A DNA stretch of 64,000 nt, from assembly GCA_016926235.1 (NCBI GenBank), contig JAFGOZ010000371.1, positions 1 through 64,000 of the forward strand, given 5' to 3'. The notes beneath the pieces are model-generated. The model searched no databases. It saw nothing but the letters and a program-made list of their open reading frames with translations, and was not told the origin of the DNA. The position numbers and the translations under genes are program-made. The stretch comes from Bacteroidales bacterium (lineage in GTDB: Bacteria; Bacteroidota; Bacteroidia; Bacteroidales; UBA10428). Below are positions 33,574-64,000 of the stretch, piece by piece. How positions within the stretch are numbered: position 1 is the stretch's first letter; each line of letters opens with the position of its first letter.

Positions 33574-33915
33574 ATGAAAGCTTTATTATTATCCATCCTG
33601 ATTATTTCGGGAATCCACAACAATCCTGTGGAAAACTCTCCAAGTGATGCAAATGCATACACCATTTCGGGTATTGTGGTTGATAAGCTTACGGGAGAAG
33701 CATTGACAGGTGTTATGATTGAAATAGAAGGGATGGATAAACTTGTTTATACAGACTTTGATGGTAAGTTTGAATTAAATGGCTTGCCTAAAGGTGAAGT
33801 TAAAATTTCCTCATCATTGATTTCCTACAAAACAATAGAGGATTATATAATTAATGTAAATGAAAAATCTTCTGGGGAAAAGGCCCTTGTTGTAGAATTA
33901 GAGTTGATGAAATAA
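33574..33915 (+). CDS. Small exported CarboxypepD_reg-like protein
   Basis: This 113-residue protein has a short hydrophobic N-terminus (MKALLLSILIISGIH) and one CarboxypepD_reg-like domain (about 30-100, ISGIVVDKLTGEALTGVMIEIE, then FDGKFELNGLPKG). In TonB receptors this domain sits before the plug; here it stands alone. Function is unknown. It converges on the MORN-type gene across a shared terminator. Confidence 0.8.
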   Translation: MKALLLSILIISGIHNNPVENSPSDANAYTISGIVVDKLTGEALTGVMIEIEGMDKLVYTDFDGKFELNGLPKGEVKISSSLISYKTIEDYIINVNEKSSGEKALVVELELMK

Positions 33916-33950: not shown

Positions 33951-33974
33951 AAAGGCCTGCTTAGTAGGCCTTTT
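33951..33974. terminator. Bidirectional terminator between convergent genes
   Basis: AAAGGCCT (33951-33958) and AGGCCTTT (33966-33973) form a perfect 8-bp stem with a 7-nt loop, with A and T runs on either side, so it can act in both directions. The loop and distal arm overlap the stop codon of the minus-strand MORN-type gene (33961-33963). Confidence 0.8.
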
Positions 33975-34431
33975 CTGATATAAGATCCCCATTATCATCA
34001 AATTTTTTCCATGTGCCTGTTTTTTCACCGTTTGAATAAGTCATGTCGTAAATCAATACTCCCTGGTTATTCCAAATAAACCATTTTCCATCCTTTTTGT
34101 CTTTGTTCCAGTTTGCCTCGGCTAATTTATGCCCCAAGCTGTCAAAAGTGCTCCAGTTTCCATGCAATTTGCCATAAGAAAAATTCATAACTTCATGTAT
34201 CTGGCCATTCGCGAAGTAGGTGGTCACGGTCCCATTTTTTACCCCGTTTTTTAATTGCATTACGAGTTTTACAGCCCCATTTTCATAGTACTCTACATAG
34301 TTCCCTGTATAAGGGCTCTCGTAGTTATTGTCAGAATAATAGATGCCGTCTTCACCAAGGGCAATTTCTTGTGAATAGCCCACGCAGAGGGTGAAAACCA
34401 TAATTAAGATAATATTTATCAAGCTTTTCAT
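33961..34431 (-). CDS. Exported MORN_2-repeat (YwqK-like) protein
   Basis: Signal peptide (to about residue 21), followed by about five MORN_2-type repeats with the pattern YxxGxxxGxWxxYxxxG (for example GNYVEYYENGAVK, GTVTTYFANGQIHE, GNWSTFDSLGHK, GKWFIWNNQGVL, GTWKKFDDNGDL). Such proteins are automatically labelled YwqK antitoxins, but here the export signal and the absence of a toxin gene argue against that. The upstream four-repeat Pho-box-like array suggests phosphate-responsive expression. Confidence 0.75.
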   Translation of the reverse strand: MKSLINIILIMVFTLCVGYSQEIALGEDGIYYSDNNYESPYTGNYVEYYENGAVKLVMQLKNGVKNGTVTTYFANGQIHEVMNFSYGKLHGNWSTFDSLGHKLAEANWNKDKKDGKWFIWNNQGVLIYDMTYSNGEKTGTWKKFDDNGDLISEKAY

Positions 34432-34485: not shown

Positions 34486-34540
34486 GTTTCAAAAAGTTAA
34501 CATAAAATTAACATTAAAGTAACAATTAGTTAACATAAAT
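34486..34540. promoter_or_regulatory. Pho-box-like array, four 7-bp repeats at 11-bp spacing
   Basis: Plus-strand repeats GTTAACA (34497-34503), ATTAACA (34508-34514), AGTAACA (34519-34525) and GTTAACA (34530-34536) are spaced exactly 11 bp apart, sharing TAACA with the arrays upstream of the porin and pstS. On the minus strand they read as TGTTAAC-type repeats, with a fifth degenerate copy TGAAACT (34486-34492), then TAAATTTA (34471-34478), one base from TAnnTTTG, then the MORN gene start at 34431. The direction of control is therefore more probably toward the MORN gene; the TonB receptor has its own promoter 190 bp away. Confidence 0.65.
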
Positions 34541-34705
34541 CCGGCCCCTCCGTTTTTTAATGTTTATAATGCATTTAATATCAAGCGGATCAGGATTATT
34601 CCATGTATCAAAATTACAACATTCGTTTGAATAAATTTACCCTTTCTTTACTTAATGAATCATTAACCTGGTAATTATACTTAAGTAATTTTTAAGACTG
34701 GCTTA

Positions 34706-34736
34706 TTGCCTCAGTAACATGTGCCTGATACATTTG
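34706..34736 (+). promoter_or_regulatory. Promoter of the TonB receptor/lipoprotein pair
   Basis: TTG at 34706-34708 and, 20 bp later, TACATTTG at 34729-34736 match the Bacteroidota -33 and -7 elements exactly. The ATG is 26 bp further at 34763. Confidence 0.65.
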
Positions 34737-34762
34737 TCCTATAAATTTAGCGCACGAGGCAT

Positions 34763-37552
34763 ATGATGAAAAGATTGAGTTTAGTATTGATTGTTGTTTT
34801 AATTAGTTTTCAGGCCCTGTATTCTTTTTCACAAACCACAATAAGTGGTAAAGTAACGGATTCACAAACCGGTGAAGAACTTGCAGGGGCTGCCATCGTT
34901 GTAAAGGGTACGACCAAGGGCACTATTACTGATTTGGATGGGAATTATGTATTAACAGGTCTAACCCCGGGCAAACATGTTATTCAATGCTCCTTTGTTT
35001 CTTTTACACCAAAAGAGGAGGAGATACATGCCAATGGTGAAGAAATTGTCCTCGATTTTAACCTCGCAATTGAAGATGTGAGCCTTGAAACGGTTGAAGT
35101 AATCGCAAAAAAGAACCGGGAATCTGAAAACCTTTTATTATTGGAACAAAGAAATGCAAACATTATTGTAGAGAACATTGGTGCAGGTGAATTGTCGCGT
35201 AAAGGTGCAGGTGATGTTGCTGCAGGTGTTAAAAAGGTTACCGGGATCTCAATGATGGGCTCGCGACAATTGTTCGTGCGGGGTTTAGGTGACCGGTATA
35301 ACAGTGTACAATCGAATAAACTGCCCTTGCCATCACCTGATCCTCAAAAGAAAGTGATGAAACTGGATTTGTTTCCATCAGACATAGTGCAGGTGTTGGA
35401 AGTAAATAAGGTGTTTAGTGTACGGAATTATGCTGACTATTCAGGCGCACTGATAAATATTGAAACCAAAGATTATCCGCAGGATCCGTTTCTTAATATT
35501 AGCATCGGGGGCGGTTATAATACAAACAGTACCTTACAACCTTTTTACAGGATTGAAGCCGAAGGCAACACCTTCATGGGCCTTGATGTTAAAAAAAGAA
35601 ACGAACTTACCCCTTTCAATTATAAGGAAGTAAACCGTCTCATGGAAATTGGCGATGATTTTCATCTCCCCAGCTATAATTATTCAAATAAGGAGGCGCT
35701 TCCAAATATTGACCTTGGCTTTACCGGCGGACGAAGGTTCCGTCTTGGGCCAGGACAATTAGGTGTTTTAGTGGCTACTTCATTCCAAAATGAATATGAG
35801 TATTATCCTGACGTAATAGATATTAATACCAACAGGGAAAATGGACAGAAAACCCGTTTTGTAAACCAGGAGTATTCGTACAACACATATTTTACAAACC
35901 TCGCAAGTATTACCTACGATCATACGAAGGATCTCAGGTTTAAGTATGACCTCGTGTTTTTAAATAATGGCGAGGATGGGTTTAAAGAAAAGAAAGGCAG
36001 CAACCTGGACTGGCCTGACGCGGATGACAGTGAATATATTACCAGGCTCGCGCATTATATCAACTATAGGCTCTTATCCCATCAATTATCAGGGTACTAT
36101 CATTTACCCGGCAATAAATGGAAACTACAGTGGGCAGGCAGTTTGAGCGATGCAGGTTATAATGTGCCCGACCGGAGGGAGGTCATTTATCATGAAACAT
36201 CTGCCGGGCGATGGGAATATATGACACTTAACAACGGTAATGATACCAAACGCATAATTGTTGAACAGGATGCTAAAGATTATAACTTCTCGTTGAATAT
36301 GTCTTATTTGCTCAATGATGACAAGGGCGAGCTTGTATTTGGAGGTGCAACCAACTATAAAAAACTGGATTATTACTCATACTTCTTTGGTTACGAATTT
36401 GACCTGGATGAAAATAGGATTGTAAACCTTGATATCTCTGATCCAAATACATACCTGACCTCGCGCTATGTAATAGATATTAATGCGAATACCTCAGATG
36501 ATATGGGATATAAAGGCAGCCGTTCTATTTACTCCGGGTTTGCAGATTTTGTATACGCCTTGACATCAAAATGGACTTTAAATGCCGGTGTACGCGCTGA
36601 GATTGCTGAAATGATGATAGAATCCAATACCATTGAAATAGATAATGATGAAGAACAATTCATTTTTAATGATGTTGATTTTTTCCCGGCTTTAAATCTC
36701 AAATGCAGCCTTACAGAAAAGACAAATCTGCGCTTTGCGGCCAGCAGGACTGTTATCAGGCCGAGTTTTTATGAAAAGACTTCGGCCCGGCTTCTTCACG
36801 AACCCGGTGATTATGCCACGTTTGGCAATCCATATACAAAGGATAATGTTAAACCAAGCGACAGTACCTATCTTGAAAATTCTTACAGCAACAATATAGA
36901 CCTGAAATGGGAATGGTTCCCGTCTCCTGGTGAACTTATTGCAATAGGGGTATATGGGAAACAAATAATAGAACCTATCGAGAGCGTCAGCCGCCTGATG
37001 GGAGGCACGGACCTGATATATACGTTTGAAAACTTTCCTGATAATGCGTATGCTGCGGGTATTGAGTTTGAAGTAAAAAAGAAAATAAGGGACCTTTTTA
37101 TAGGCTTTAACGCTTCCTATATCTACACCCATTTAAAGATACCTGAAGGGCGTTATGAAAACCAACGCGAGCGTTCCCTGCAGGGGGCGTCACCTTACCT
37201 GGTTAATGCTGATTTAGGGTATGTGCTGAACTATGGCGCAGAGAAACAACAAAAATGCTATGCAGGGATTGTTTATAATGTTTATGGGAAAAGATTGTAC
37301 CGCGTTGGCGTTTCAGGAGGTGGTAACCAATATGAATTGCCTGTGAACAGCCTGGATTTGATTATAAAAAACAAACTCAGCAACAAATTGGATATAAATA
37401 TTAGCATCAAAAATATTCTGGACCCCGATATAACCATTATACAAGAAGTGTATGAAGATGAATTACATCCCGACGTAAAGACGAAAGACCAGGTAATACA
37501 TCAATACAATAAAGGAATAACGGTGAAACTGGGTTTTGCATACAAATTTTAA
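34763..37552 (+). CDS. TonB-dependent receptor with CarboxypepD_reg domain
   Basis: Signal peptide (to about 24), CarboxypepD_reg domain (about 27-110, ISGKVTDSQTGEELAGAAI), plug (about 125-240, with GISMMGSRQLFVRGLGDRYN) and a barrel ending in Phe. It has 929 residues. The plug resembles receptors paired with a beta-helix-like lipoprotein rather than SusC. The lipoprotein gene starts 48 bp downstream and both are probably one transcript. Substrate unknown. Confidence 0.92.
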   Translation: MMKRLSLVLIVVLISFQALYSFSQTTISGKVTDSQTGEELAGAAIVVKGTTKGTITDLDGNYVLTGLTPGKHVIQCSFVSFTPKEEEIHANGEEIVLDFNLAIEDVSLETVEVIAKKNRESENLLLLEQRNANIIVENIGAGELSRKGAGDVAAGVKKVTGISMMGSRQLFVRGLGDRYNSVQSNKLPLPSPDPQKKVMKLDLFPSDIVQVLEVNKVFSVRNYADYSGALINIETKDYPQDPFLNISIGGGYNTNSTLQPFYRIEAEGNTFMGLDVKKRNELTPFNYKEVNRLMEIGDDFHLPSYNYSNKEALPNIDLGFTGGRRFRLGPGQLGVLVATSFQNEYEYYPDVIDINTNRENGQKTRFVNQEYSYNTYFTNLASITYDHTKDLRFKYDLVFLNNGEDGFKEKKGSNLDWPDADDSEYITRLAHYINYRLLSHQLSGYYHLPGNKWKLQWAGSLSDAGYNVPDRREVIYHETSAGRWEYMTLNNGNDTKRIIVEQDAKDYNFSLNMSYLLNDDKGELVFGGATNYKKLDYYSYFFGYEFDLDENRIVNLDISDPNTYLTSRYVIDINANTSDDMGYKGSRSIYSGFADFVYALTSKWTLNAGVRAEIAEMMIESNTIEIDNDEEQFIFNDVDFFPALNLKCSLTEKTNLRFAASRTVIRPSFYEKTSARLLHEPGDYATFGNPYTKDNVKPSDSTYLENSYSNNIDLKWEWFPSPGELIAIGVYGKQIIEPIESVSRLMGGTDLIYTFENFPDNAYAAGIEFEVKKKIRDLFIGFNASYIYTHLKIPEGRYENQRERSLQGASPYLVNADLGYVLNYGAEKQQKCYAGIVYNVYGKRLYRVGVSGGGNQYELPVNSLDLIIKNKLSNKLDINISIKNILDPDITIIQEVYEDELHPDVKTKDQVIHQYNKGITVKLGFAYKF

Positions 37553-37600
37553 TTTTTATTATAACACGAAAACTAAATTTTTAATTAAAAACAAAAAGAG

Positions 37601-38827
37601 ATGAAAAAGATTAATTTACATTTGATTTTCGCATTATTAGTAGGTTTTGGCCTGGTACTGTCATCATGTAAGGACGACGATGACCCGGAGGGCCCACAAA
37701 CAACGGATGCGCTTTCAGGTAACATTACAAAAGATGTAATAGTAGATGGGAACGCTACCTTAAGCGGTGAAGTGCATGTGAAGAGCGGTGTTACCCTGAC
37801 TATTAAGGCCGGATCTGTTATTACAGCGGATGCAAGCGATTTGTCATATCTTTTAATTGAACAAGGAGCGAAAATTATGGCTGAAGGAACAGCTGATAAG
37901 CCTATCATTTTTACTGCCTCATCTAAAGAAACGGGTGCATGGGGAGGTATCCACATTTGTGGCAAGGCATCTATAAACAGTGGTGCAACCGGTACTTCAG
38001 AAATCGGGGATGCTATTTATGGCGGGACCGATGATAATGATAATTCCGGAACACTTAAGTATTGTATTGTTGAGTATTCAGGAACAACCCTTGACCCTGA
38101 ACACGAAGCTAACGGTATTTCTTTTTACGGTGTTGGGAATGGCACAACTGTAGATTATATTGAAATATATGTTGGACAGGATGACGGAATTGAATTCTTT
38201 GGCGGGACTGTAGATGTCAAACACGTAATTGTATATGCAGCTGAAGACGATAGTTACGACTGGACAGAAGGCTGGAGAGGAAGAGGCCAATACCTGATAG
38301 CTATACAGGGCGCAAAAGGCGACAGGGGTATTGAAGGTGACAACCTTGGGAGTAACAATACTGCTACTCCTTATGCAAGTCCTGTGATGTCGCAGGTTAC
38401 TTTAATAGGTGATGGTGATGCTGATAACTATGGTATGAAACTTCGCGAAGGGACCAAAGGGAAATTCTATAACTTTATTGTAACTGGTTTTGACAAGAGA
38501 AGTATCCACGTTGAGCACGATCAAACTTTATTAAATGTAATTGACGGTTCATTGCTGGTTGATTATTCCTTTGTAAATGACAGTGTATCGGATGCAGGTA
38601 TTAAGTATTCAGCTACTGAAGGTTCAGATAAACCGGCAAATCTTACAGACTATCAATTTGAAAAATCTGCAAATATACACCTGCTTGATTTACGCACAGG
38701 TGTTAGTGCATCTACTACATATACCGGCGGCAAAGATGTAAGCACCATGGATAGTTGGTTCGAGAGTTCAACTACTATTGGCGCTGGCAGCAGCTGGGCC
38801 ACCTGGAGCAACACTTTGGGTAAATAG
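37601..38827 (+). CDS. Lipoprotein with beta-helix-like repeats, partner of the TonB receptor
   Basis: Lipoprotein signal with lipobox VLSSC (Cys about 23) followed by an Asp-rich linker (KDDDDPEG). The body has strand-rich repeats (VHVKSGVTLTIKAGSVI, AEGTADKPIIFTAS, GTTVDYIEIYVGQDDGIEFFGG) of a parallel beta-helix type. The Asp-rich exported linker is typical of surface lipoproteins. It lies directly downstream of a TonB receptor, as SusD does with SusC, although it is not SusD. It is likely the surface binding partner of that receptor. Confidence 0.8.
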   Translation: MKKINLHLIFALLVGFGLVLSSCKDDDDPEGPQTTDALSGNITKDVIVDGNATLSGEVHVKSGVTLTIKAGSVITADASDLSYLLIEQGAKIMAEGTADKPIIFTASSKETGAWGGIHICGKASINSGATGTSEIGDAIYGGTDDNDNSGTLKYCIVEYSGTTLDPEHEANGISFYGVGNGTTVDYIEIYVGQDDGIEFFGGTVDVKHVIVYAAEDDSYDWTEGWRGRGQYLIAIQGAKGDRGIEGDNLGSNNTATPYASPVMSQVTLIGDGDADNYGMKLREGTKGKFYNFIVTGFDKRSIHVEHDQTLLNVIDGSLLVDYSFVNDSVSDAGIKYSATEGSDKPANLTDYQFEKSANIHLLDLRTGVSASTTYTGGKDVSTMDSWFESSTTIGAGSSWATWSNTLGK

Positions 38828-38860
38828 GTTTGGTTAGCAACCAGATAATTTATGGTTAGA

Positions 38861-38887
38861 AAGCTGCCTTCGGGTAGCTTTTTTTTT
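38861..38887 (+). terminator. Intrinsic terminator after the receptor/lipoprotein pair
   Basis: AAGCTGCC (38861-38868), tetraloop TTCG and GGTAGCTT (38873-38880) form an 8-bp stem with one G-T pair, followed by nine T. It is 34 bp after the lipoprotein stop. Confidence 0.9.
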
Positions 38888-38939
38888 GTTTATAACTAAA
38901 ACAATGGAAGGGCAAATTGCCTTTTAATTGCCCGTAGTG

Positions 38940-39170
38940 CAACCTAATATCTCCCGCCCCGACGGGGTAGTTTTTACCAAAATCAAGCTTTTCTTAAACC
39001 AAACTAAGTATTTCTATACATTATCCCGTCGGGGCAGGATAGTATTGCACAACCTCTGTCAGCCTGCCTGAAGGTAGGGCAGGCTGACAGGATTTATCAA
39101 TCCTCAGGCTCACACTTCTACGGTCTTCCGTCTTCCGACTCCCGGCCCTGGTCTTCTGGCTCCTCAAAAA
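38940..39170. repeat. Palindromic and low-complexity intergenic repeats
   Basis: GCCCCGACGGG (38954-38964) recurs as its reverse complement CCCGTCGGGGC (39025-39035). A long hairpin CTGTCAGCCTGCC (39056-39068)/GGCAGGCTGACAG (39078-39090) follows without a T run. Beyond it is pyrimidine-rich text with CTTCCG and GGCTCC repeats to 39170. These look like GC-rich intergenic repeat elements in an otherwise AT-rich genome. Nothing coding is seen. Confidence 0.55.
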
Positions 39171-39242
39171 AATTGTTATGATTTATTCAATGTAAAGATT
39201 AAATTTGTCTTTATTAAATCAAAATTTAACCTTTACTTTTTC

Positions 39243-39950
39243 ATGGCAAATCTGAATGAATACAAAATCCTTATCGTGGATGATGAGGAAGATATTGTAG
39301 AATTCCTATCGTATAATATACAAAAAGAAGGTTACCGGGTCTTTGGGGCCCGGAATGGGCTTTCCGCTATCGAATTGGCGCGCAAAGAATTGCCTCACCT
39401 GATACTTATGGATGTGATGATGCCCGAGATGGATGGAATTGAAACATGTGAAGAGCTCAGGAAAATAGCTGCATTAAATAATACTATAATTGCTTTCCTA
39501 ACAGCCAGGGGAGAGGATTATTCGCAAATTGCCGGTTTTGAAGCAGGAGGGGATGATTATATTACAAAGCCTATTAAACCAAAAGTTTTAATTAGCAGAA
39601 TTAAGGCTTTGCTTAAACGGGTAAAAGACATTGAAGTAAATGCAGGTGCAGAACCAGCTGAATTAATTATTGAACGGGACGGGTTGATCATAAACAGGGA
39701 GAAATACATGGTTTACAAGAATGGGGAGGAGCTTGTTCTTCCCAAAAAAGAGTTTGAATTGTTGGCGCTTTTAATTAATAAACCAGGAAAAGTTTTTTCA
39801 AGGGATGAAATCTTCAATACGATTTGGGGTGAAGATATTATCGTAGGTGACAGGACTATTGATGTCCATATAAGAAAACTTCGCGAAAAAATTGGAGAGG
39901 AACGCATTGAAACGGTAAAAGGAGTAGGGTACAGGTATACCGAAAAGTAA
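39243..39950 (+). CDS. OmpR/PhoB-family response regulator
   Basis: Receiver domain (about 1-125) with phosphoacceptor Asp in HLILMDVMMPEMDG, acidic pair in VDDEEDIVEFL and the Lys in DYITKPIKP; winged-helix domain (about 140-235) with DIIVGDRTIDVHIRKLREKI. Length 235. It closely resembles the PhoB-type regulator at 58714 but has no adjacent partner kinase on its strand. A role in the phosphate response is possible but not shown. Confidence 0.9.
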   Translation: MANLNEYKILIVDDEEDIVEFLSYNIQKEGYRVFGARNGLSAIELARKELPHLILMDVMMPEMDGIETCEELRKIAALNNTIIAFLTARGEDYSQIAGFEAGGDDYITKPIKPKVLISRIKALLKRVKDIEVNAGAEPAELIIERDGLIINREKYMVYKNGEELVLPKKEFELLALLINKPGKVFSRDEIFNTIWGEDIIVGDRTIDVHIRKLREKIGEERIETVKGVGYRYTEK

Positions 39951-39992
39951 TCACCTGTTACGAATTTTCAATTCGTTATTATCCTTTCTGTT

Positions 39993-40226
39993 TCAGGCTA
40001 AGGTCTTAGAATTTATCAGGCTTTGAATATCATCCGCGTAGGTTTTTTCATGTTTTACAAAAAAATCATATAAATCCGCTACGGCCTCATCCATTGTAAG
40101 CTGTTTATATCTGTATAATTGCCGAACAGAATTAATCCTCATTTTTAGCGTGGTACTTTTTATATCTGGATAGGTATTGCTTTTTATCAGATGGATCCAT
40201 TCCTTCTTGTTTTTATCCGGTATCAT
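39993..40226 (-). CDS. Hypothetical protein, 77 residues
   Basis: A helix-rich, charged small protein (IHLIKSNTYPDIKSTTLKM, then YKQLTMDEAVADLYDFF) with no signal peptide or recognised family. It is 49 bp downstream of the 331-residue gene on the same strand, so it may be cotranscribed. Codon use is like the neighbours. The evidence is limited to an open frame and operon position. Confidence 0.5.
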   Translation of the reverse strand: MIPDKNKKEWIHLIKSNTYPDIKSTTLKMRINSVRQLYRYKQLTMDEAVADLYDFFVKHEKTYADDIQSLINSKTLA

Positions 40227-40275
40227 TTTTATTTGGTTATTTCAAATGTTTTAAATTCATTTTTATCTAATCCTT

Positions 40276-41271
40276 TTAACTGCTTTTATTTGAGGTTATT
40301 GGTTTTGGTTTTATCATTGCAGGTTTTTTCATGGTTGTGGGTTTCGTTTTTGGGGTAACCTTTGTTTCAGCGCTTTTTGTTTCTGGGGCGGTTGTTTTTT
40401 CTGCTTCCGTATAGGATTCAACAGTACCTGCTATCTCATTGGTCAATTTTGTTTTTTCTTTGTTTTCTGCTTTTTCTGCTTTCTCTGCTACTGGTTTTTT
40501 AGTTACTGCCTGTTGTTCTTTCATTTTAGCTTTTTGTTTTTTATCCTTCTTATCGTCCTTCCTGGATTCTTTTTCTGTAATTACCCTGCTTTCCCTGTAT
40601 TTCTTTACAAATTCTTTATCTGTCGTTTCAAATAGGGTTATGAGTTTATCCAGCTTGTAATTTAAAAGGTTATCATTTGCTTTTACCATTTTATTAATTT
40701 GTTTCCTGCACTTATTGAGATAACTTATGGAGTCTCTTAATTGCAATACCGAATCGATGTAACGTTTTATGTTCTTTTTAAGTTCTTCAATCATATCCTG
40801 TGTTAACCCATAGGAATGGATACTTTCTTTAACTTTCTCCTTTTTGTTTTTCACAATAAGTTTATCAGCAGTTTTAACCGATTTATCATAGGCCGTTTTT
40901 GCAGATTTCCATATGGTTTTACATTTGCTGATTAATTCCGAATCTTTAACCTTGGATAATTTTTCAGCAGTAAAACCTAATTTTTTCGCCAGGTTTTCAT
41001 TATCAGTATCGTAGGCATAAACCTGAAGCACGGAGCATACAGGAACCGCCGAATTTATTAATATTTCCTTTCTGTTTATTTTTTCCATTAAGACAGGTGT
41101 TATATCTGTGGCATCTTCTTTTTTCAAGTTTGTTAAAACCTCGTTGTTTGCGAAGAACCCATCTATGGTATTCTTAAATTCCGGGATCCCGTCCCATTTA
41201 GGGCTTCCTTCCTTTAATTGTCCCTGTACTTTAAAGTACATTTCGGTTTTCCTGTTTTGTTTATCTTTCAT
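40276..41271 (-). CDS. Hypothetical coiled-coil protein with low-complexity tail
   Basis: A 331-residue, Lys-rich protein without signal peptide. The first 240 residues are predicted mostly helical with coiled-coil character, and the last 90 are a repetitive Lys/Glu/Ala/Thr/Pro segment (EKAEKAENKEK, KVTPKTKPTTMKKPAMIKPKP). No family recognised. It lies downstream of the hybrid histidine kinase (56-bp gap), so an accessory role is possible. Confidence 0.65.
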   Translation of the reverse strand: MKDKQNRKTEMYFKVQGQLKEGSPKWDGIPEFKNTIDGFFANNEVLTNLKKEDATDITPVLMEKINRKEILINSAVPVCSVLQVYAYDTDNENLAKKLGFTAEKLSKVKDSELISKCKTIWKSAKTAYDKSVKTADKLIVKNKKEKVKESIHSYGLTQDMIEELKKNIKRYIDSVLQLRDSISYLNKCRKQINKMVKANDNLLNYKLDKLITLFETTDKEFVKKYRESRVITEKESRKDDKKDKKQKAKMKEQQAVTKKPVAEKAEKAENKEKTKLTNEIAGTVESYTEAEKTTAPETKSAETKVTPKTKPTTMKKPAMIKPKPITSNKSS

Positions 41272-41327
41272 AATTGAATTTTTATTTGTTATTTAATTTC
41301 TTTTCAGATGAATACATGGTTTGCCAT

Positions 41328-43367: not shown

Positions 43368-43547
43368 TTTGTTTATCTCCTAATACATCAATAATCCTTT
43401 TAAAGTTCCCTGTTTTATCTTAAGTTTAGCTTAATTTATCCTTAAGAAAACCTAATGTTAATAAGTTTTTATTCAGCCGGGCCATAGATCTTTGATATTC
43501 AAAAAGATGGCCATGCGCAAGGATGCAAGTCGGCGTCGGGTATATTT

Positions 43548-45296: not shown

Positions 45297-45760
45297 GCTT
45301 AATCAATTTATAATGCCACAAATTTTTGAATGAACTATATCTGCAAAGTAAAGAAGTGGGGCAGATATTGCGATTAACTTGATATTAAGATAAAATTAGG
45401 TTTTGGTTACGTATTTGAACATGTTAAAATCTCAAGATTCCAATAGCTTTTACGTCGTTTCATTATGTTTTGAACTGACTTAAATGTCATCGGATGAATT
45501 TATAGCAAAGTCATAATTAACATAACATGGGTTAAATCTTAATTTGTTATGCAAATATTATAAATGGCATATATTTTCATCTTGAGGCAGTTAAAAAAAA
45601 TATTCAATTTAAATATTAAATTAACACAAAACATACATTAAAATATCCATCCCATCAAGCTTCTTCATTCATAACATTCAGGCAAAATTGATTTTTACAT
45701 AACACCTCAGGGAACGCTTCTTAATAGTTTAGCACCGTCTAATTTTTAATAAAATATAAT
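45297..45760. other. Regulatory intergenic region before the phosphatase/phytase cluster
   Basis: About 460 bp of AT-rich DNA between divergent genes, without coding potential. ATTAACA (45620-45626), CAAA and ACATACA (45631-45637) are at 11-bp spacing, as in the Pho-box-like arrays, but the flanking copies are poor (TTAAATA, AATATCC). It may be a weak or degenerate array. No clean -7 element was found. Confidence 0.35.
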
Positions 45761-46762
45761 ATGATGAAAAGATTTTTACTAAGCCTGAGTGCATTATTTA
45801 TTGGGGTGTTCCTGTTCCAGGTGAATGCCCAAACAACATTGGAGATACCTATTATTGCCACTGGTGGTACTGATAGTGTAGATGTTGAGTATTCAGATCC
45901 GGATACAGTTATCTGGATTGTTGTTCCACTGTCATCTGATGATGCAGAACAAGAGAATGATGAGATCGATTCTTATTTTGACGATGACCTTGATTTGGGC
46001 TGGGAAGGGGCGCCTGATGCCATGAATACGGTTAATCTGGGTTTAAGGTTTCAGAACGTGACCATCCCTAAAGGTGCGACCATTGATTCAGCATACCTGA
46101 TTTTATGTTCGCATGAAGCTCGCGAAGCTATTTTGGATGCAGCCTTAATAACAATTAAAGGCGAAGCATCTGACAGCGCTATGACTTATGATGTGGATAC
46201 CTTTTTAATTACCGATCGTACAAAAACTACAGCTACAGTAACCTGGGCAGATAGTACAGCCTGGGGGCTTTATACATATCATAAAAGCGCCGATATATCT
46301 TCAATAATCCAGGAAATCATTGACCGCCCGGGTTGGAATACGGGTAATCCCATAAGCCTTATATTAACAGGCGAAGACCAGGGCCCCAGTGATTATTTAA
46401 ATTCAAGGGAAATAGAAGCCTTCGAAAACATAGCTGATCCGGGTGATGGCGGCGATGGACAAAACCATCCGGAGAGAAGGCCCAAACTCAGGATAGTTTA
46501 TAATACGGCAACGCGCGTTAACCAATATGGATTATCCCGTTTAGCTGTTTATCCAAACCCGGCAAGGGACATATTTCATATCTCGGTAATTGATAAATCG
46601 GAAATCTCTATTGTTGACATTACAGGGAAAGAAGTAATGAATTTTGTAGCAGAAAAGAATTCTACAACAACGGTAAATGTTAGTAATTTACATAGTGGAA
46701 TGTATTTTGTCAAAGCTGTTCAAAACAATAATAGCCTGACTTGTAAGGTAATTGTTAAATAG
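45761..46762 (+). CDS. Secreted DNRLRE-like protein with T9SS type A sorting domain
   Basis: Signal peptide (to about 23, FQVNAQ), then a beta-sandwich resembling DNRLRE/CBM-type domains (about 45-240, with LGLRFQNVTIPKGATIDSAYL), and a C-terminal sorting domain (about 255-333) starting RLAVYPNPARD and ending VKAVQNNNSLTCKVIVK. It should be exported by type IX secretion and held at the surface. The gene precedes the TonB receptor, acid phosphatase and phytase genes. A terminator-like hairpin follows it. Confidence 0.8.
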   Translation: MMKRFLLSLSALFIGVFLFQVNAQTTLEIPIIATGGTDSVDVEYSDPDTVIWIVVPLSSDDAEQENDEIDSYFDDDLDLGWEGAPDAMNTVNLGLRFQNVTIPKGATIDSAYLILCSHEAREAILDAALITIKGEASDSAMTYDVDTFLITDRTKTTATVTWADSTAWGLYTYHKSADISSIIQEIIDRPGWNTGNPISLILTGEDQGPSDYLNSREIEAFENIADPGDGGDGQNHPERRPKLRIVYNTATRVNQYGLSRLAVYPNPARDIFHISVIDKSEISIVDITGKEVMNFVAEKNSTTTVNVSNLHSGMYFVKAVQNNNSLTCKVIVK

Positions 46763-46774
46763 AGATTTGGTTAA

Positions 46775-46843
46775 AACTGTCCATTAAAATTGGCTATAAT
46801 ATTGATTTCTTTTAACTGATTTAGTGGACAGTTCTTTTTTTTT
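46775..46843 (+). terminator. Long-loop terminator or attenuator before the TonB receptor
   Basis: A 14-bp stem (46775-46788/46820-46833, one G-T pair) encloses a 31-nt loop and is followed by C and nine T (46835-46843). It ends 37 bp before the receptor start, and an additional promoter may lie inside (TAATATTG at 46797-46804). It should reduce read-through from the T9SS gene into the receptor gene. Confidence 0.65.
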
Positions 46844-46880
46844 GCATGAGGAGATTACAGGTTTTTATGAAGATAACAGA

Positions 46881-49778
46881 ATGAATATGATACCATCCAT
46901 TAAAAAAATACTTTTATTAATAGCGTTTTTTTTACAAATAATAAGCCATGGATTTTCACAAGGAAATTATAAAGTTTCAGGCGTTGTAACCGATGGAGAG
47001 ACAGGTGAATATTTGCCTGGTGCAACAGTGGCTGTGGAAAGTACAACTATTGGTACCGTCACGGATTTAAATGGCCGCTTTACTTTAAAATATAATCGTA
47101 ATGCTTTTAACCTTACCGTGTCTTTTATTAGTTATGAACAAGTGGTAATTCCTGTTAACCTCTCAGGGGGGCATAACGGGGATATTGAAATTAAGTTACA
47201 AAAGAAAAGCACATTAATTGATGAGGTTCAGATAGTGGGAGAAACTGATGGGCAGGTAAAAGCCATGCTTAATCAAAAAAATGCAGAGAATATCAAAAAC
47301 ATAGTTTCTTCAGAGCAGATCGAACAATTCCCGGACATGAATGCAGCAGAAGTGGTGCAAAGGATACCTGGAATAACTCTTCAAAGGGATCAGGGTGAGG
47401 GAAGGTTTGTGCAGCTCCGGGGAACACCGCCCGAACTGACAAACTTTAGTATAAATGGTGAACAGATACCTTCACCGGAGGGAAATGTAAGATACGTGGG
47501 GCTGGATGTAATTTCGGCAGACCAGATAGAGACCATTGAGGTTACCAAGGTTATGACTCCCGATATGGATGGGGACGGCATAGCAGGAAATGTAAATATA
47601 GTAACTAAAACTGCCAATGGAAAAGAACCCGAAATAAAGGTCTCTGCCGCTGGCGGATATAATAATTTAAGAGAAAGGGATAATTACCAGTTTCAATTTG
47701 CATTCGGACAAAGAACAGGAAAATTTGGTTTCAATATAAATGGTAACTATTATGTCAATAATCAGGGCTCTGATAACATGGAATTTAAATATGTAAAAAG
47801 TACATTCTGGGGTAGCACTGATGAGGGAGTTGATAATTATCACGTTCAATACAGGGATTATCAACTCAGGTATTATGAAATAACAAGACAACGAATTGGT
47901 CTTAGTTCAACCTGGGATTATAATTTTAACGATAAGTCGTACCTATATTTAAGGGGTATGTATAACAGCTTTAAGGATGATGAATTGCGACGTAGGGTGG
48001 TATATGATCTGGATGACGCTGTCTCGGAAGATTATTATTTGTATGGAGGTATTAAACGGGATGTAAGGGACAGAATTAAAAACCAGGACATTACTTCTAT
48101 AAATCTTGGGGGCGAGCATGATTTAAATTGGTTATTAATTGATTATGAGGGGGCTTACGCAATTGCAAAAGAAACTCAACCTGAGAGAGTTGAAGCATCA
48201 TTTGATAACCCCGGACAGGCAATTGCAATGAAAATTGACAGGAGTGATCCTGACTGGCCTGTAATATACTTTCCTGAACCGTCAGATTCTGTATATGCTA
48301 TTAATTATGCCGAATATGATTTTGATGATATCCTTTTCGAACAATCAGAGATTATTGATAATAACCTTACTGCTAAAGTAAATATTAAAATTCCTTATAA
48401 ATTAAGTACTCAAAAAGGATATTTTAAACTTGGTGGAAAATACAGGACCAAAGAAAAAGTCAGGGATGCGAAGGCAAATATATATGATGCATATTTTACT
48501 ACTTCACGGACCTATCCGGGTCAGGGGCCTGAGATATCTTTTTTGGATTTTGACGATGGTTTTATTGAAAACAATTTGTTAAATCATGGCTATACCATTG
48601 ACCATATACCTGATCCGGTTAAAATCAGAGATTTCTATGAATACTATTCTCAGTTTTTTATTTTAGATCGTACCGATACCAAGAAACACTCTTTCGGGAC
48701 AGATTATAAAGCCAATGAGGATATATTTGCGTTTTATGGAATGATACGGCATGATATTGGCAGGTTGATGATTCTGGGAGGTTTGAGATATGAGAAAACG
48801 GTTATCGATTATGAAGGAAGAAGAGTTGTTGTTGATTTCAGAAATAATTTTCAGGAACTTGACACTCTGACTGACAGCAGGGAACATGAATTCTACCTGC
48901 CAAACCTGCAGTTGAAATATACTATTAATGGTAATACAAATTTTCGCTTGTCATATACGAGTACCTATTCCAGACCAAACTTTGAAGATATTTTACCCTA
49001 CAGGGACGAAGATGATAGAGAAATAAAATATGGAAACCCGGACCTGAAATATCCCACTTCTTCAAATTATGATCTTCTGGCGGAACATTACATTTCTGAA
49101 GGGGGGATATTTTCAGGGGGTGTCTTTTATAAAGATATTAAGGATTTTGTGTTTTATTATAAACGTTTTGGGCGTGAAGGTGAGCACACAGGCTCATTTA
49201 GTCCCCGGGAAATAACCAAAGCTATAAATGGTAAAAGGGCTGAGGTTTTTGGTGCTGAATTACAGAGTCAGTTTAAGTTTACATATCTCCCCGGTTTTTT
49301 AAGCAATTTTGGGGTTTATTGTAATTACACATATACGTATTCTGAAGCATTTATTAATAAAAGGATTCCTGTAAACAGTCTTACTTCTGTTATAATTTTC
49401 GGAGAGGATAGCCTCGGTACTTTTATTAATGAAAATGAAGAAGAAAAAATTAAGCTGCCTGGTCAGGCGAAACATACAGCAAATCTTGCTTTGTTTTATG
49501 ATTCAAAAAAGTTTTATGCAAAATTAACTGCAAACTATCATGATTCATTTCTTCATTCCCTTGGGGCAGATAAGGATTTGGATGAATACTATGCTGCCGG
49601 CTGGCATCTGGATTTTACAGCACATTATTTAATAACTCCGAAATTAACTGTATTTGCTGATTTTATTAATCTTACCAATGCTCCTTTAAAATATTATTTA
49701 GGAAGCCCGGACAGGTTATTACAGCAGGAATTTTACTCCTGGTGGGCACGTGTAGGATTGAAACTGGAAATCAATTAA
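46881..49778 (+). CDS. TonB-dependent receptor of the phosphatase/phytase cluster
   Basis: Signal peptide (IKKILLLIAFFLQIISHGFSQ), CarboxypepD_reg domain (about 30-110, VSGVVTDGETGEYLPGATV), plug (about 120-235, RIPGITLQRDQGEGRFVQLRG, then SADQIETIEVTKVMTPDMDG) and a barrel. The TPDMDGDGIAG segment is of the TIGR01782-like receptor class. The frame is open to 46824, inside the terminator hairpin, but the ATG at 46881 gives a proper signal peptide (965 residues). Neighbours suggest import of organic phosphate, phytate or a breakdown product. Confidence 0.88.
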   Translation: MNMIPSIKKILLLIAFFLQIISHGFSQGNYKVSGVVTDGETGEYLPGATVAVESTTIGTVTDLNGRFTLKYNRNAFNLTVSFISYEQVVIPVNLSGGHNGDIEIKLQKKSTLIDEVQIVGETDGQVKAMLNQKNAENIKNIVSSEQIEQFPDMNAAEVVQRIPGITLQRDQGEGRFVQLRGTPPELTNFSINGEQIPSPEGNVRYVGLDVISADQIETIEVTKVMTPDMDGDGIAGNVNIVTKTANGKEPEIKVSAAGGYNNLRERDNYQFQFAFGQRTGKFGFNINGNYYVNNQGSDNMEFKYVKSTFWGSTDEGVDNYHVQYRDYQLRYYEITRQRIGLSSTWDYNFNDKSYLYLRGMYNSFKDDELRRRVVYDLDDAVSEDYYLYGGIKRDVRDRIKNQDITSINLGGEHDLNWLLIDYEGAYAIAKETQPERVEASFDNPGQAIAMKIDRSDPDWPVIYFPEPSDSVYAINYAEYDFDDILFEQSEIIDNNLTAKVNIKIPYKLSTQKGYFKLGGKYRTKEKVRDAKANIYDAYFTTSRTYPGQGPEISFLDFDDGFIENNLLNHGYTIDHIPDPVKIRDFYEYYSQFFILDRTDTKKHSFGTDYKANEDIFAFYGMIRHDIGRLMILGGLRYEKTVIDYEGRRVVVDFRNNFQELDTLTDSREHEFYLPNLQLKYTINGNTNFRLSYTSTYSRPNFEDILPYRDEDDREIKYGNPDLKYPTSSNYDLLAEHYISEGGIFSGGVFYKDIKDFVFYYKRFGREGEHTGSFSPREITKAINGKRAEVFGAELQSQFKFTYLPGFLSNFGVYCNYTYTYSEAFINKRIPVNSLTSVIIFGEDSLGTFINENEEEKIKLPGQAKHTANLALFYDSKKFYAKLTANYHDSFLHSLGADKDLDEYYAAGWHLDFTAHYLITPKLTVFADFINLTNAPLKYYLGSPDRLLQQEFYSWWARVGLKLEIN

Positions 49779-49789
49779 AACTTAAAATT

Positions 49790-50809
49790 ATGACTTCAAT
49801 TAGACGTATTTTATTTTCCCCCGGAACAGCATGGATTATTTGTTTGGTTACATTTGTATTATTGCTGAAATGTGGCATGAATAATAGCATGCCTAACGAT
49901 CAAAGTTATGATACTTTAATTATTAAACCCGATGACAGCGATCTCTCTTTTATTATATTCGGCGATTGGGGAAGAAACGCTTATTACTACCAGGATGATG
50001 TGGCTAAAGCCATGGGTGAGTTTTGTGATAGTTTTGGCGGTGTGGATTTTATTATTTCGTGTGGGGATAATTTTCAGACAAACGGGGTTGCCAGCATAGC
50101 AGATCCTCTATGGAATAGCAGTTTTGAAAATGTATACACACATCCATCCCTTCTTGTTGACTGGTATCCGGTACTTGGTAACCATGATTACAAGGGGAAT
50201 ACAAATGCTGAAATTCAATATTCGTCCATTAGCAGGAGATGGCGTATGACAGATAATTATTATTCAATCGACAGGCAAATAAATGATAGTGTTGCGGCGA
50301 AGTTTCTTTTTATTGATACCTCTCCTTTAATTGATTATTATCACGGCAAGCCCGAAACGTACCCTGATGTCGTGAAACAGGACACAGCCAAACAAATGCA
50401 ATGGATTCGTGAAACATTAAAGAATGTGGATGAGGAATGGATTTTTGCCATTGGACATCATCCTGTTTTTTCCGGAAGTCCTGCACACGGGAACACGGAT
50501 GACCTGATTGAAAAGCTAAAACCAGTATTTGACAGAAGTGCTTTAGACTTTTATTTTTGTGGTCATGATCATGACTTCCAGCATATAAAAGCAACAGGTT
50601 CACATGTTGAATATTTTGTTACAGGTACCGGTTCACAAATAAGGGAAACAGGAATTACTGAAAATACAGTTTTCAGCCTTGCACAGCCTGGTTTTACTGT
50701 AGTAATACTTCAAGGTACCCGGTTATATCTGCATTTTCTAGATATTAAGGGGAATATTAAATATTCGATAGAAAGATCTGTATTTAAAGCAACAAATAAT
50801 ATTTTGTAA
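49790..50809 (+). CDS. TRAP-like acid phosphatase (metallophosphoesterase)
   Basis: An N-terminal hydrophobic segment (to about 30, LLLKCG, a non-canonical lipobox) exports it. The five metal-binding blocks are FGDWGRN, CGDNFQTNG, LGNHDYKG, IGHHPVFSG and CGHDHDFQH, as in type 5 (tartrate-resistant) acid phosphatases. The block GDNFY of ACP5 reads GDNFQ here (Gln96), so the Fe-tyrosinate ligand is missing. Length is 339 residues. The ATG at 49790 is preferred to an upstream in-frame start at 49742. The preceding receptor stop overlaps that longer start; phytase follows after 11 bp. Confidence 0.85.
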   Translation: MTSIRRILFSPGTAWIICLVTFVLLLKCGMNNSMPNDQSYDTLIIKPDDSDLSFIIFGDWGRNAYYYQDDVAKAMGEFCDSFGGVDFIISCGDNFQTNGVASIADPLWNSSFENVYTHPSLLVDWYPVLGNHDYKGNTNAEIQYSSISRRWRMTDNYYSIDRQINDSVAAKFLFIDTSPLIDYYHGKPETYPDVVKQDTAKQMQWIRETLKNVDEEWIFAIGHHPVFSGSPAHGNTDDLIEKLKPVFDRSALDFYFCGHDHDFQHIKATGSHVEYFVTGTGSQIRETGITENTVFSLAQPGFTVVILQGTRLYLHFLDIKGNIKYSIERSVFKATNNIL

Positions 50810-50820
50810 ATTGCATAAAT

Positions 50821-51975
50821 ATGAATTCAAAATATAATATTAAAATATTTTGCCTTTTGCTCTTGTATGTTAGCGCATGTAATGAGGCAAAGAAAACAAA
50901 CACCATGGATGCTGACATAGATAGTATTGAACTAATGCAAATGCAAGAAAAGTATGAGGATTCAATAGAATGGGTATATTCGAAAAATTTGCAGGCAGGA
51001 ATAAAAAATAATATAACTGCAGATATAGAAACCCAGCCCGTTGAATCTTTAAATGGAGATGATGCTGCAGACGATCCGGCTATTTGGATAAATGAAAAAG
51101 ACCCTTCACGAAGCCTGGTTTTGGGTACGAATAAAAAAGCAGGGCTTTATGTGTATGATCTGGAAGGCGATCTAGTGGCTTATCGCAAAATTGGCAGGGT
51201 GAATAATGTAGATATACGAGATGGATTTCTATTATGGGAAAAAGAAGTGGCCATTGTTGCAGCAAGCAACAGAAGCAATAATTGTATATCATTATTATAT
51301 ATTGATAAGGCCACCGGAGAAATTTCGGATACAATAAAAAATATTCCATCGGATGTGGATGAAGTATATGGTGTTTGTCTTTATAAAGACATAAAAAACA
51401 ATACGTTTTATGTGTTTGTAAATGGGAAGGGCGGATGGATCGAACAGTGGCTTATAGCAGGAGGTAGTCAAATAAGCGCTCATCTGGTAAGGACATTTAC
51501 GGTTGGCAGCCAGCCGGAAGGCATGGTTGTTAATGACAAGAATGGCATGCTATACATTGGTGTTGAAGACGAAGGGATTTTCAAGTTTTCAGCCGATCCT
51601 GCCAATATTATTGAAATGGTCAAACTTCCGGGCAGTGACTCTACAAATGCAAATATTGCTTATGATATTGAAGGAATTGCCTTATTTTCCTATAAAGAAT
51701 TTGATTATTTAATTGCATCCAGCCAGGGAAATTATTCTTACACTTTATTTAAATTAGGGAAAACAGATCAATATATAACAAGTTTTACAATATATGATGG
51801 GATCATTGACGGTGTTGAAGAAACAGATGGGCTGGATGTGGCTGTTTCAGCTTTAAGCAGTCGTTTTCCTGAAGGCTTATTGGTGGTTCAGGACGGCTTT
51901 AATTATAATGGAGATACATTAGTAAACCAAAACTTCAAGTTTATATCCATTGAAAAGTTGTTAAAGCTATTGTAA
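50821..51975 (+). CDS. Beta-propeller 3-phytase-like lipoprotein
   Basis: Lipoprotein signal with Cys at about 20 (LLLYVSAC). The mature part matches the BPP phytase pattern: DDAADDPAIWINEKDPSRS, VLGTNKKAGLYVYDLEG, VNNVDIR, DEVYGVCLYKDIKNN, SQPEGMVVNDKNG and the Asp/Glu-rich blade (DIEGIALFSY, EETDGLDVAV) that would bind calcium. It should remove phosphate from inositol hexakisphosphate outside the cytoplasm. Last gene of the receptor-phosphatase-phytase unit, 11 bp behind the phosphatase. Confidence 0.85.
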   Translation: MNSKYNIKIFCLLLLYVSACNEAKKTNTMDADIDSIELMQMQEKYEDSIEWVYSKNLQAGIKNNITADIETQPVESLNGDDAADDPAIWINEKDPSRSLVLGTNKKAGLYVYDLEGDLVAYRKIGRVNNVDIRDGFLLWEKEVAIVAASNRSNNCISLLYIDKATGEISDTIKNIPSDVDEVYGVCLYKDIKNNTFYVFVNGKGGWIEQWLIAGGSQISAHLVRTFTVGSQPEGMVVNDKNGMLYIGVEDEGIFKFSADPANIIEMVKLPGSDSTNANIAYDIEGIALFSYKEFDYLIASSQGNYSYTLFKLGKTDQYITSFTIYDGIIDGVEETDGLDVAVSALSSRFPEGLLVVQDGFNYNGDTLVNQNFKFISIEKLLKLL

Positions 51976-52503
51976 AGTGAAATTGACAGAAATTATTGCA
52001 TTCTGACCGGGCCTAATTGATTAAAACAAAAAAGCCATAATGGATAAATTATTGTCTTTAACTCCAAAGGACTCCAGAGGAATCATATGTCTGTATAAGT
52101 TAGTTATTACGAAATAAAACCGGCGCAAGCATTTTGTATCAATGAAATATTAATCCTCACGTGCGACGGAAGGCAGGAATGCTTGTTATCTTAACTGATG
52201 TTTGATTTCGCAAATCAAGAGGACTTAACGTGAGCACTTCTTTTTAGAAAGTCTCACAATTCAGAATATTATTTATCAATAATTCCAGTATAAAACAACG
52301 TTATATGCTACGTTAATATTCTCACCAATAAAGTTCACTATATATAAAAATATTCTTCAATTATAAAATAATGTGCTAATTGAATTATATAGTAATGATA
52401 GAAATGATTATAAAAATGAATAATATTTAGTTATTATTTATTTAATTATAGTGTAAAATTTATGTTAACAACTATATATCAATATGTTATTCTTTAACCT
52501 AAA
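51976..52503. other. Non-coding intergenic region with small hairpins
   Basis: About 530 bp without coding potential. CTCACGT (around 52158) recurs as its complement ACGTGAG (around 52230), and inside it TTGATTT-CGC-AAATCAA forms a short hairpin. CAAGCATT and AATGCTTG form another weak pair. These may be remnants or a structured RNA, but none is strong enough to name. The phosphate-regulated porin promoter follows. Confidence 0.35.
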
Positions 52504-52560
52504 TGTAACATAAATGTAATATTAATGAAATCCAAATGTAATAGAAAAGAAATAATATTG
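52504..52560 (+). promoter_or_regulatory. Pho-box-like array and promoter of the porin gene
   Basis: TGTAACA (52504-52510), TGTAATA (52515-52521), TGAAATC (52526-52532) and TGTAATA (52537-52543) are spaced exactly 11 bp apart with AT-rich 4-bp spacers. Nine bp further lies TAATATTG (52553-52560). The ATG is at 52586. This layout, with direct repeats replacing the -33 element, is that of PhoB-activated promoters. Confidence 0.75.
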
Positions 52561-52585
52561 TATTATAATTTTAAACCAACTATCA

Positions 52586-53605
52586 ATGAAGAAATTAGGA
52601 GTATCCCTTATTGTAACAATTTTGTTATCAGCCGCTCTTTTCGCCCAGGATAGCGAGGAGAAACCGGAATTTAAGCCCTCAGGCAAGCCATATGCCAATA
52701 TTTTCAGTAATTTTAATGTAATAAGTTACGATGGCAATACCGATTATGGTTTCGATATTACCAGGGCATATCTGGGTTATAGTTATAATTTTAGCGAACA
52801 CTTTTCCGGGAAAGTGAACATTGATGTAGGCGCCCCGGAAGTCTATATTAATGACTCAGTAGATGGATCTACGAACTTAGACCTCACCGCTTACTTAAAG
52901 ATAGCATCCCTAACGTATAAGTACGACAAACTTACGGTAGACTTTGGAATGATTGGGCTTAAACAGTTTAAGGTTGCCGAAGGCTTTTGGGGCCACCGCT
53001 ATATTTACAAATCATTTCAGGATGCATCAAAAATGGGTTATAGCGCAGATTTGGGTATGAGTGTTGCTTATGATATCATAGATCAGCTAAGTGTGGATTT
53101 TACTGTGACAAATGGCGAAGGGTATAAATCATTACAGGCCGACAGCCTGCTAAAATATGCTGCAGGCATAACAGGAAAACCTGTCGAAGGGCTTGTTTTG
53201 CGGGTTTATTATGATATGATGGGTGAAAAAGACATGCAGTCGACATTTTCTGCTTTTGCCGGATATGCGGATGATAAAATAAGCATAGGGGCTGAATATG
53301 ATTTTCAGATGAACAATAAAGTTGAAAAAGGCAAGGATCTTTCAGGTATCTCGGCTTATGCATCTTATCAGCTAACCGATATGATCGAAGTATTTGGAAG
53401 GTATGATAACCTCTCTTCCGTAAAACTTGACGGGGCTGATGATCCATGGAATATTAAAAAAGATGGCCAGGCCATTATAGGGGGTGCGGAGTTTAATCTA
53501 GCCAAAGGTGTGAAAATTGCCCCTAACTACCAAGGATGGATTTCTTCCAGGAATGGAGAAAAAGCGAAATCGGGTTTCTTTATTAACCTGGACCTGAAGT
53601 TTTAA
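52586..53605 (+). CDS. Outer membrane porin of the phosphate island
   Basis: Signal peptide (to about 20, SAALFAQ) followed by about 16 amphipathic strands ending in a terminal Phe (FFINLDLKF). Segments such as GFDITRAYLGYSYNFSEHFSGKV recall phosphate-selective porins (OprP/OprO-like), without the recognisable Lys ladder. It is 89 bp upstream of pstS and shares the same type of operator, so it probably lets phosphate or phosphate esters across the outer membrane. Confidence 0.8.
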   Translation: MKKLGVSLIVTILLSAALFAQDSEEKPEFKPSGKPYANIFSNFNVISYDGNTDYGFDITRAYLGYSYNFSEHFSGKVNIDVGAPEVYINDSVDGSTNLDLTAYLKIASLTYKYDKLTVDFGMIGLKQFKVAEGFWGHRYIYKSFQDASKMGYSADLGMSVAYDIIDQLSVDFTVTNGEGYKSLQADSLLKYAAGITGKPVEGLVLRVYYDMMGEKDMQSTFSAFAGYADDKISIGAEYDFQMNNKVEKGKDLSGISAYASYQLTDMIEVFGRYDNLSSVKLDGADDPWNIKKDGQAIIGGAEFNLAKGVKIAPNYQGWISSRNGEKAKSGFFINLDLKF

Positions 53606-53608
53606 GCT

Positions 53609-53665
53609 TGTAACATTATTGTAATGAATTTGTAACATGGCAGTAATTTTAAATATATATGATTG
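53609..53665 (+). promoter_or_regulatory. Pho-box-like array and promoter of pstS
   Basis: TGTAACA (53609-53615), TGTAATG (53620-53626), TGTAACA (53631-53637) and AGTAATT (53642-53648) are spaced exactly 11 bp apart, and TATGATTG (53658-53665) follows after 9 bp. The ATG is at 53695. The geometry is identical to the porin array, including the TAnnATTG element. Confidence 0.8.
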
Positions 53666-55947: not shown

Positions 55948-55974
55948 ATTATATGAATATAAAATCATTTATAA

Positions 55975-56110: not shown

Positions 56111-56151
56111 ACTTTTAGTGTAAATCAATTTTCCTTTAAAAATAAAAGTAT

Positions 56152-57036: not shown

Positions 57037-57037
57037 C

Positions 57038-57823: not shown

Positions 57824-57932
57824 AAAGTGCGCCAGGGAGAGCAACGCCAATTGCCGCGTTGTGCCTACCGGAAAAAGGGTTGGTTACGATTTGTAAACTC
57901 CCATTTTCCTGGCTTTGCAAACCTTGTACTTG

Positions 57933-62223: not shown

Positions 62224-64000
<1,777 letters not shown>

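Follow-up and report, generated by a model that had tools for sequence, protein, structure and literature searches.

In the 64,000-nucleotide stretch of Bacteroidales DNA analysed here (the window), the arrays of four 7-mers ahead of a porin-like gene and of pstS are, with high probability, Pho boxes that have a group-specific consensus near KGTAAYA and are locked to the Bacteroidota promoter. Our overall explanation, which is built on sequence comparison and to which we assign a probability of about 0.87, is that these two arrays would be bound by PhoB and that a third would be an upstream array of receptor and lipoprotein genes. All three, each comprising four 7-mers at exact 11-bp steps, had been proposed in the original prediction, and both direct reading and scoring found them to be present. 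The porin-pst-pho region has the following features:

52504..52543, + strand: predicted porin Pho-box array, four 7-mers at 11-bp steps, array part 35.5 bits
52553..52560, + strand: porin -7 element TAATATTG, 9 bp past the last 7-mer of the array, 7.2 bits
52586..53605, + strand: porin-like gene, 339 aa, without Pfam family
53609..53648, + strand: predicted pstS Pho-box array, four 7-mers at 11-bp steps, array part 34.1 bits
53658..53665, + strand: pstS -7 element TATGATTG, 9 bp past the last 7-mer of the array, 6.0 bits
53695..54756, + strand: pstS (TIGR00975)
55054..58695, + strand: two permease genes, an ABC ATPase gene and phoU, read from their domains as pstC, pstA, pstB and phoU
58714..59400, + strand: phoB (NF053854 equivalog, 343.6 bits, cut-off 270)
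59414..61180, + strand: histidine kinase gene, read as phoR

The units of the porin array are TGTAACA, TGTAATA, TGAAATC and TGTAATA (starts 52504, 52515, 52526 and 52537), the third being weak, while those of the pstS array are TGTAACA, TGTAATG, TGTAACA and AGTAATT (starts 53609, 53620, 53631 and 53642), with a weak fourth. At both, the last repeat and TAnnATTG are separated by exactly 9 bp, as had been claimed. A matrix whose training sites came solely from other genomes gives 42.6 bits to the porin site and 40.1 bits to the pstS site, against 17.9 bits for the best of 40 shuffled windows. Both sites have the 7-bp direct repeats and 4-bp spacers by which a Pho box is recognized. They do not match the E. 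coli consensus CTGTCAT, their unit being KGTAAYA; this mismatch does not exclude them from the Pho-box family because the consensus varies between species, according to the available part of a review (PMC4415409). Domain matches indicate that pstS is followed in turn by genes for two permeases, an ABC ATPase and PhoU, and then by those for a response regulator and a histidine kinase. Relatives of the porin-like gene stand ahead of pstS in many genomes; a query of the genome collection with the porin-like protein itself gave no relative. Just upstream of the porin (45761-51975) lies a phosphorus cluster encoding a T9SS-sorted protein, a TonB-dependent receptor (TIGR01782), a metallophosphoesterase and a phytase (PF02333). 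Relaxed scoring found no array upstream of this cluster, and none ahead of the genes at 45761 and 39243 or of the phytase (relaxed P 0.55 to 0.63).

The regulator at 58714, previously described as PhoB-type, is identified as a Bacteroidota PhoB by its score above the cut-off of NF053854, which is NCBI's equivalog model for that protein. A second PhoB-like regulator (39243-39950) reaches 212 bits on the same model, under the cut-off of 270; it sits behind the receptor and lipoprotein genes considered below, and its relatives neighbour relatives of that receptor at two loci (L088, L090). The recognition helix of PhoB relatives, of which 62 distinct ones were compared, reads R-T/N-V-D-V-N-I-A/T-R-L-R-K-K; one of two positions is N in 52 of them and the other is A or T in 53. 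In E. coli PhoB these two positions are occupied by H and R, a difference that would fit a changed operator consensus.

We collected 80 pstS loci of related Bacteroidota and counted pairs of near-identical 7-mers in the 78 whose upstream stretch is 150 bp or longer. Such pairs number 269 at the 11-bp spacing, against 57.6 +/- 13.2 in shuffles, and 151 at the 22-bp spacing, against 52.2 +/- 10.3; spacings of 7 and 14 bp are also raised in this set (168 and 151). On 69 non-redundant pstS stretches, de novo EM set to a unit of 11 bp yielded a T-G-T-A-A-C-A-T-T-like unit; units of 12, 14 and 15 bp outscored 11 in likelihood, which may be explained by porin coding sequence that the stretches still contained. 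For a genome-wide scan we used a pattern of four TGTAAY at 11-bp steps with at most 3 mismatches on 38 related whole genomes, which go back to 39 loci picked from the 80 once their pstS upstreams had been viewed, so that the sample is not blind. The pattern gave 112 matches (68 forward and 44 reverse) against 9 for the backwards control, and 29 of the 38 genomes were matched, the other nine having no match. The 112 rows comprise 27 that are 11-bp tandem repeats, all in four genomes (G001-G004), and 85 that are non-tandem. Merging overlaps by hand reduced the rows to 85 distinct sites, from which 12 tandem-repeat ones were removed by hand to leave 73; an automatic tandem filter also caught real sites and was for this reason not used. 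The tandem repeats, of the TTGTAATTCAG / TGTCATTCAAT kind, mimic Pho-box arrays with their 11-bp period and lie at G001:C12, G002:C237/C152/C206/C461/C525, G003:C179/C421 and G004:C195/C21/C129/C188; some of them are contained in the loci L134, L135, L163, L171 and L201.

A phosphate or pho-linked gene lies downstream of 56 of the 73 distinct non-tandem sites, which is the enrichment at phosphate genes that the original prediction had proposed to look for. The genes concerned are the window's porin type (17), pstS (13), the small CarboxypepD_reg gene (12, two of them hand-assigned), the TonB receptor (2), a PlcP-like gene (2), PHO4 (1), the lipoprotein (2, one of them weak at 46 bits), alkaline phosphatase (2, one of them taken from an identical copy), Porin_O_P (2) and proteins that are porin-like by eye and have no Pfam match (3). 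Seventeen sites have no assigned phosphate-linked gene, including a perfect match (G025:C156), which itself lacks a -7 element. Draconibacterium orientale (L046 = G029) has 3 sites in its 5.1-Mb genome, and all of them fall within a 14.3-kb part of the pst-pho region. A single site was found in each of eight genomes; it is a porin or pstS site in seven of them (G005, where it has no Pfam match, G015, G016, G022, G023, G032 and G038); the sole site of the eighth, G019, is neither and has no assigned phosphate-linked gene.

The scan pattern stopped at the last repeat and the -7 element TAnnTTTG was not part of the search. Among 71 distinct sites TAnnTTTG (matching in 5 or more of its 6 letters) stands at offset 9 in 50, against 0 to 3 sites at each other offset from 0 to 30, and offset 9 accounts for all 16 perfect matches. 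In the matrix made from 42 non-redundant sites, which were chosen by the gene behind them, the -7 part reads T31 A36 n T27 T36 T42 T40 G39. The same TAnnTTTG is the sigma-A element of Flavobacterium psychrophilum, where it lies at -12 to -5, in the accessible portion of the report on that organism (PMC9723704). This geometry bears on the suggestion that the arrays are AT-rich periodic DNA or curvature with no regulator involved, which could appeal to the AT-richness of the array regions and to the box-like 11-bp tandem repeats in G001-G004. It is contradicted by the fixed 9-bp distance to the -7 element, by the sense-strand bias of the sites, by their association with phosphate genes and by the excess of the arrays over dinucleotide shuffles, and we consider it highly improbable. 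Chance or AT-richness as the source of the arrays was likewise rejected by the shuffles and the backwards control pattern. The array sequences, their departure from chance, the constant distance to the -7 element and the link to phosphate genes across genomes are matters of direct observation.

From these sequences we infer PhoB binding, activation and a phosphate response at the arrays. If it acts as known PhoB does, the phosphorylated product of 58714-59400 would occupy the four head-to-tail units as two dimers. As a TAnnTTTG-type -7 element follows the porin array and the pstS array at a distance of 9 bp, PhoB would act in place of a missing upstream promoter contact, which is how we interpret the fixed 9-bp geometry. 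Low phosphate would then lead to transcription of the porin gene, and of pstS together with the genes behind it.

A class-wide sample, in which PstS was sought in 198 genomes, matched in 70 and returned 30 loci, allowed the breadth of this signal to be gauged. With the relaxed unit at spacing 11 in the sense orientation, 7 of the 30 upstream regions reach at least 23 of 28; at other spacings there are none at 8-10, one at 12 and none at 13-15, and neither the antisense orientation nor the shuffles give any. The class-wide units are looser and KTTAACA-like, for example GTTAATA and CTTAACA, and the trained matrix finds a sense site of at least 15 bits in five of the 30 (L245, L246, L247, L258 and L261), the matrix site of a further locus (L260) being on the wrong strand. 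EM on the class-wide set finished in an A-rich optimum. Of 296 phylum genomes, 41 contain a strict three-unit pattern with free spacers and 22, by a count of the rows, its control. Given these results, TGTAAY proper is a trait of the wider relatives of the window and does not clearly extend to the whole phylum. The proposal of a lineage-specific Pho box is borne out for the porin and pstS arrays by the scan enrichment and the PhoB model.

The third array lies in the intergenic region between a MORN gene and a TonB-dependent receptor, with the following features around it:

33574..33915, + strand: small CarboxypepD_reg protein gene, whose relatives mostly have a Pho box
33961..34431, - strand: MORN_2 protein gene, divergent from the receptor, not likely a direct target
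34496..34535, + the better strand: third array, four NTTAACA/AGTAACA 7-mers at 11-bp steps, no -7 element after it
34680..34719, + strand: weaker array ahead of the receptor, 9.9 bits including the -7 part
34729..34736, + strand: receptor -7 element TACATTTG, 8.5 bits
34763..37552, + strand: TonB-dependent receptor with CarboxypepD_reg domain
37601..38827, + strand: lipoprotein-like protein, predicted beta-helix, after the receptor in nearly all relatives examined

This array had been placed at 34497 and is indeed present, starting one base earlier, but its units GTTAACA, ATTAACA, AGTAACA and GTTAACA (starts 34496, 34507, 34518 and 34529) are nearer to NTTAACA than to the TGTAACA attributed to it. 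The relaxed consensus gives it 26 of 28 on the + strand, a value that none of 3000 shuffles of the 331-bp intergenic region reach, and in this region spacings of 8-10 and 12-15 score at most 21. The - strand scores 23 (P 0.011), mostly as an echo of the palindrome GTTAAC. With the trained matrix the array part has 11.3 bits (0.1 to 0.2 expected per window) and the -7 part -10 bits, the -7 position 9 bp after the last unit being occupied by CCCCTCCG.

The original prediction had made the MORN gene a new Pho member through this array. The + strand of the array faces the receptor gene at 34763, ending 227 bp upstream of it, and a box directly upstream was found in 0 of 19 MORN relatives, on which ground MORN was rejected as a direct target. 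It could be argued that the MORN gene uses this array as a Pho box of its own, acting on the - strand: the array lies 64 bp ahead of the MORN start, MORN relatives accompany a pho-linked cassette, and the - strand has the relaxed score given above. That score is lower than the one on the + strand and largely the palindrome echo, the trained matrix gives the - strand just -0.7 and 5.0 in two registers with no -7 element at 9 bp, and the relatives have no such box, all of which makes this improbable. Since MORN relatives travel with the pho-linked cassette, phosphate control of MORN is possible through operon membership in other genomes or through the shared intergenic region here.

We consider the third array to be most likely, from its sequence context, an upstream PhoB array of the receptor and beta-helix lipoprotein genes (34763-38827), this function being the weakest step of our overall explanation. 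Searches of 38 and of 140 genomes gave receptor relatives in 23 and 29 of them, respectively, and a box (at least 10 bits, within 300 bp before the start) precedes 32 of 47 distinct loci, against 0 of 47 for the antisense box and 0 of 47 for the coding control; after removal of redundancy the count is 27 of 42. Two members of this set (L085 and L094) were training sites, and its start codons were chosen by script. The boxes differ in their promoter linkage: at eight loci (L081, L204, L209, L211 and L214-L217) the box lies 111-231 bp upstream with a weak -7 element, at L084 it lies 243 bp upstream of the receptor relative without one, and at L085, L086 and L090 it lies 140-178 bp upstream with a good one. 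The third array resembles the eight-locus group by place only, with CCCCTCCG at its -7 position, and positional homology to that group stays a candidate.

The weaker array at 34680 has the layout CTTAAGTAATT TTTAAGACTGG CTTATTGCCTC AGTAACATGTG CCTGA TACATTTG, and at its 9.9 bits the matrix expects 0.025 to 0.075 per window. Its CTTATTG unit (34702-34708) ends 20 bp ahead of the -7 element TACATTTG, and CTTATCG or CTTATCT was counted by eye exactly 20 bp before TAnnTTTG at six loci (L082, L087, L091, L093, L097 and L098), all of which score below 10 bits with the matrix. This distance is one 11-bp step beyond the usual 9 bp. In our reading, 34496 would be the upstream PhoB array and 34680 a weaker promoter-linked array of the same receptor and lipoprotein genes, with its CTTATTG unit one 11-bp step further from the -7 element than usual. 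An Rfam search of 33300-35000 gave no match.

An alternative is that the third array belongs to another OmpR/PhoB-family regulator, such as that at 39243 behind the receptor and lipoprotein genes. The protein encoded there is PhoB-like yet under the PhoB cut-off, its relatives adjoin receptor relatives in L088 and L090, and the units of the array are NTTAACA rather than TGTAAYA. Against this, similar NTTAACA units are used in the class-wide PstS upstreams, and receptor relatives lie beside phoR in several loci and have boxes with PhoB-type units, so that we regard such an assignment as unlikely and retain PhoB as the probable regulator of the third array.

The receptor relatives recur in a conserved neighbourhood, with the order phoB-phoR-receptor-lipoprotein-(lipoprotein)-MORN-CarboxypepD_reg at L164, L165, L232 and L233 and the alternative order receptor-lipoprotein-phoB-phoR at L229, L230 and L234. 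The structure model of the lipoprotein (37601-38827) is all-beta (mean pLDDT 68.1, residues 31-230 mostly above 80), and among solved structures it matches a pectate lyase best (E 5.9e-4, TM 0.54 by target and 0.29 by query); on account of this model and match its fold is likely a beta-helix. Among relatives of the small CarboxypepD_reg gene, 19 of 22 have an upstream box of at least 15 bits, about half of these being training sites. No array was found before the window's own copy at 33574 (relaxed P 0.85), where just TATTTTTG is left (33543-33550 region). A further candidate, which was not part of the original prediction, lies beyond phoR:

61336..62223, - strand: PlcP-like metallophosphoesterase gene
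62309..62348, - strand: degenerate four-unit array ahead of the PlcP-like gene, relaxed P 0.007, array 3.3 bits

The units of this array, read on the - strand from 62348 to 62309, are CCTAAT, TTTAAG, ATTAAT and GTTAAT, and the matrix finds no -7 element at 9 bp. The PlcP-like product is about 56% identical to those of genes behind two scan matches, and two of its four relatives score at least 10 bits upstream, both being training sites. Going by its sequence, the array is possibly a fourth Pho site. Tentatively, and with somewhat less than even odds, we suggest that a group-specific operator locked at 9 bp, with a second position one 11-bp step out, would serve an outer-membrane cassette near phoBR (TonB receptor, beta-helix lipoprotein, MORN protein and CarboxypepD_reg protein, inherited beside phoBR) that may constitute an uncharacterised phosphorus-uptake machine of Bacteroidota.

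The E. coli Pho box is placed close upstream of a core promoter element, and likewise the porin and pstS arrays. In the accessible text of the above review (PMC4415409) it has the consensus CTGTCAT and consists of 11-nt direct repeats, each with seven conserved and four less conserved positions; the porin and pstS arrays share the 11-nt direct repeats but have KGTAAYA in place of CTGTCAT, and four units. They also differ in standing 9 bp from a TAnnTTTG -7 element and not at a sigma-70 -10. The PhoP box of Streptomyces coelicolor, as covered in the same available part, resembles them in its direct repeats and PhoB-family regulator and differs in its GTTCACC unit, the consensus differing by group (PMC4415409). 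Closer to the window, Bacteroides fragilis PhoB gel-shifts a 512-bp pstC promoter fragment, which makes it comparable as a Bacteroidota PhoB at a pst promoter, the likeness being one of fragment binding, with neither site nor consensus given in the accessible portion of that report (PMC3547664). For Flavobacterium johnsoniae, the portion available of a study of low phosphate describes a large response, including a phytase-linked receptor, induction of PlcP and others, and induction of Fjoh_0545/0546, a receptor and a pectin-lyase-like lipoprotein (IPR011050) that belong to the PhoBR operon (PMC8115612). The latter pair is likened to the receptor and lipoprotein genes of the window by description, not by sequence, and that portion gives no operator and mentions neither motif nor promoter (PMC8115612). 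In the open-access literature searched, which omits most subscription papers, we found no Bacteroidota Pho-box consensus.

Variation of the consensus between groups is already established. A consensus combined with a fixed promoter geometry would permit prediction of the Pho regulon from sequence in Bacteroidota, and the finding ties a little-studied cassette of receptor, lipoprotein, MORN and CarboxypepD genes to phosphate control.
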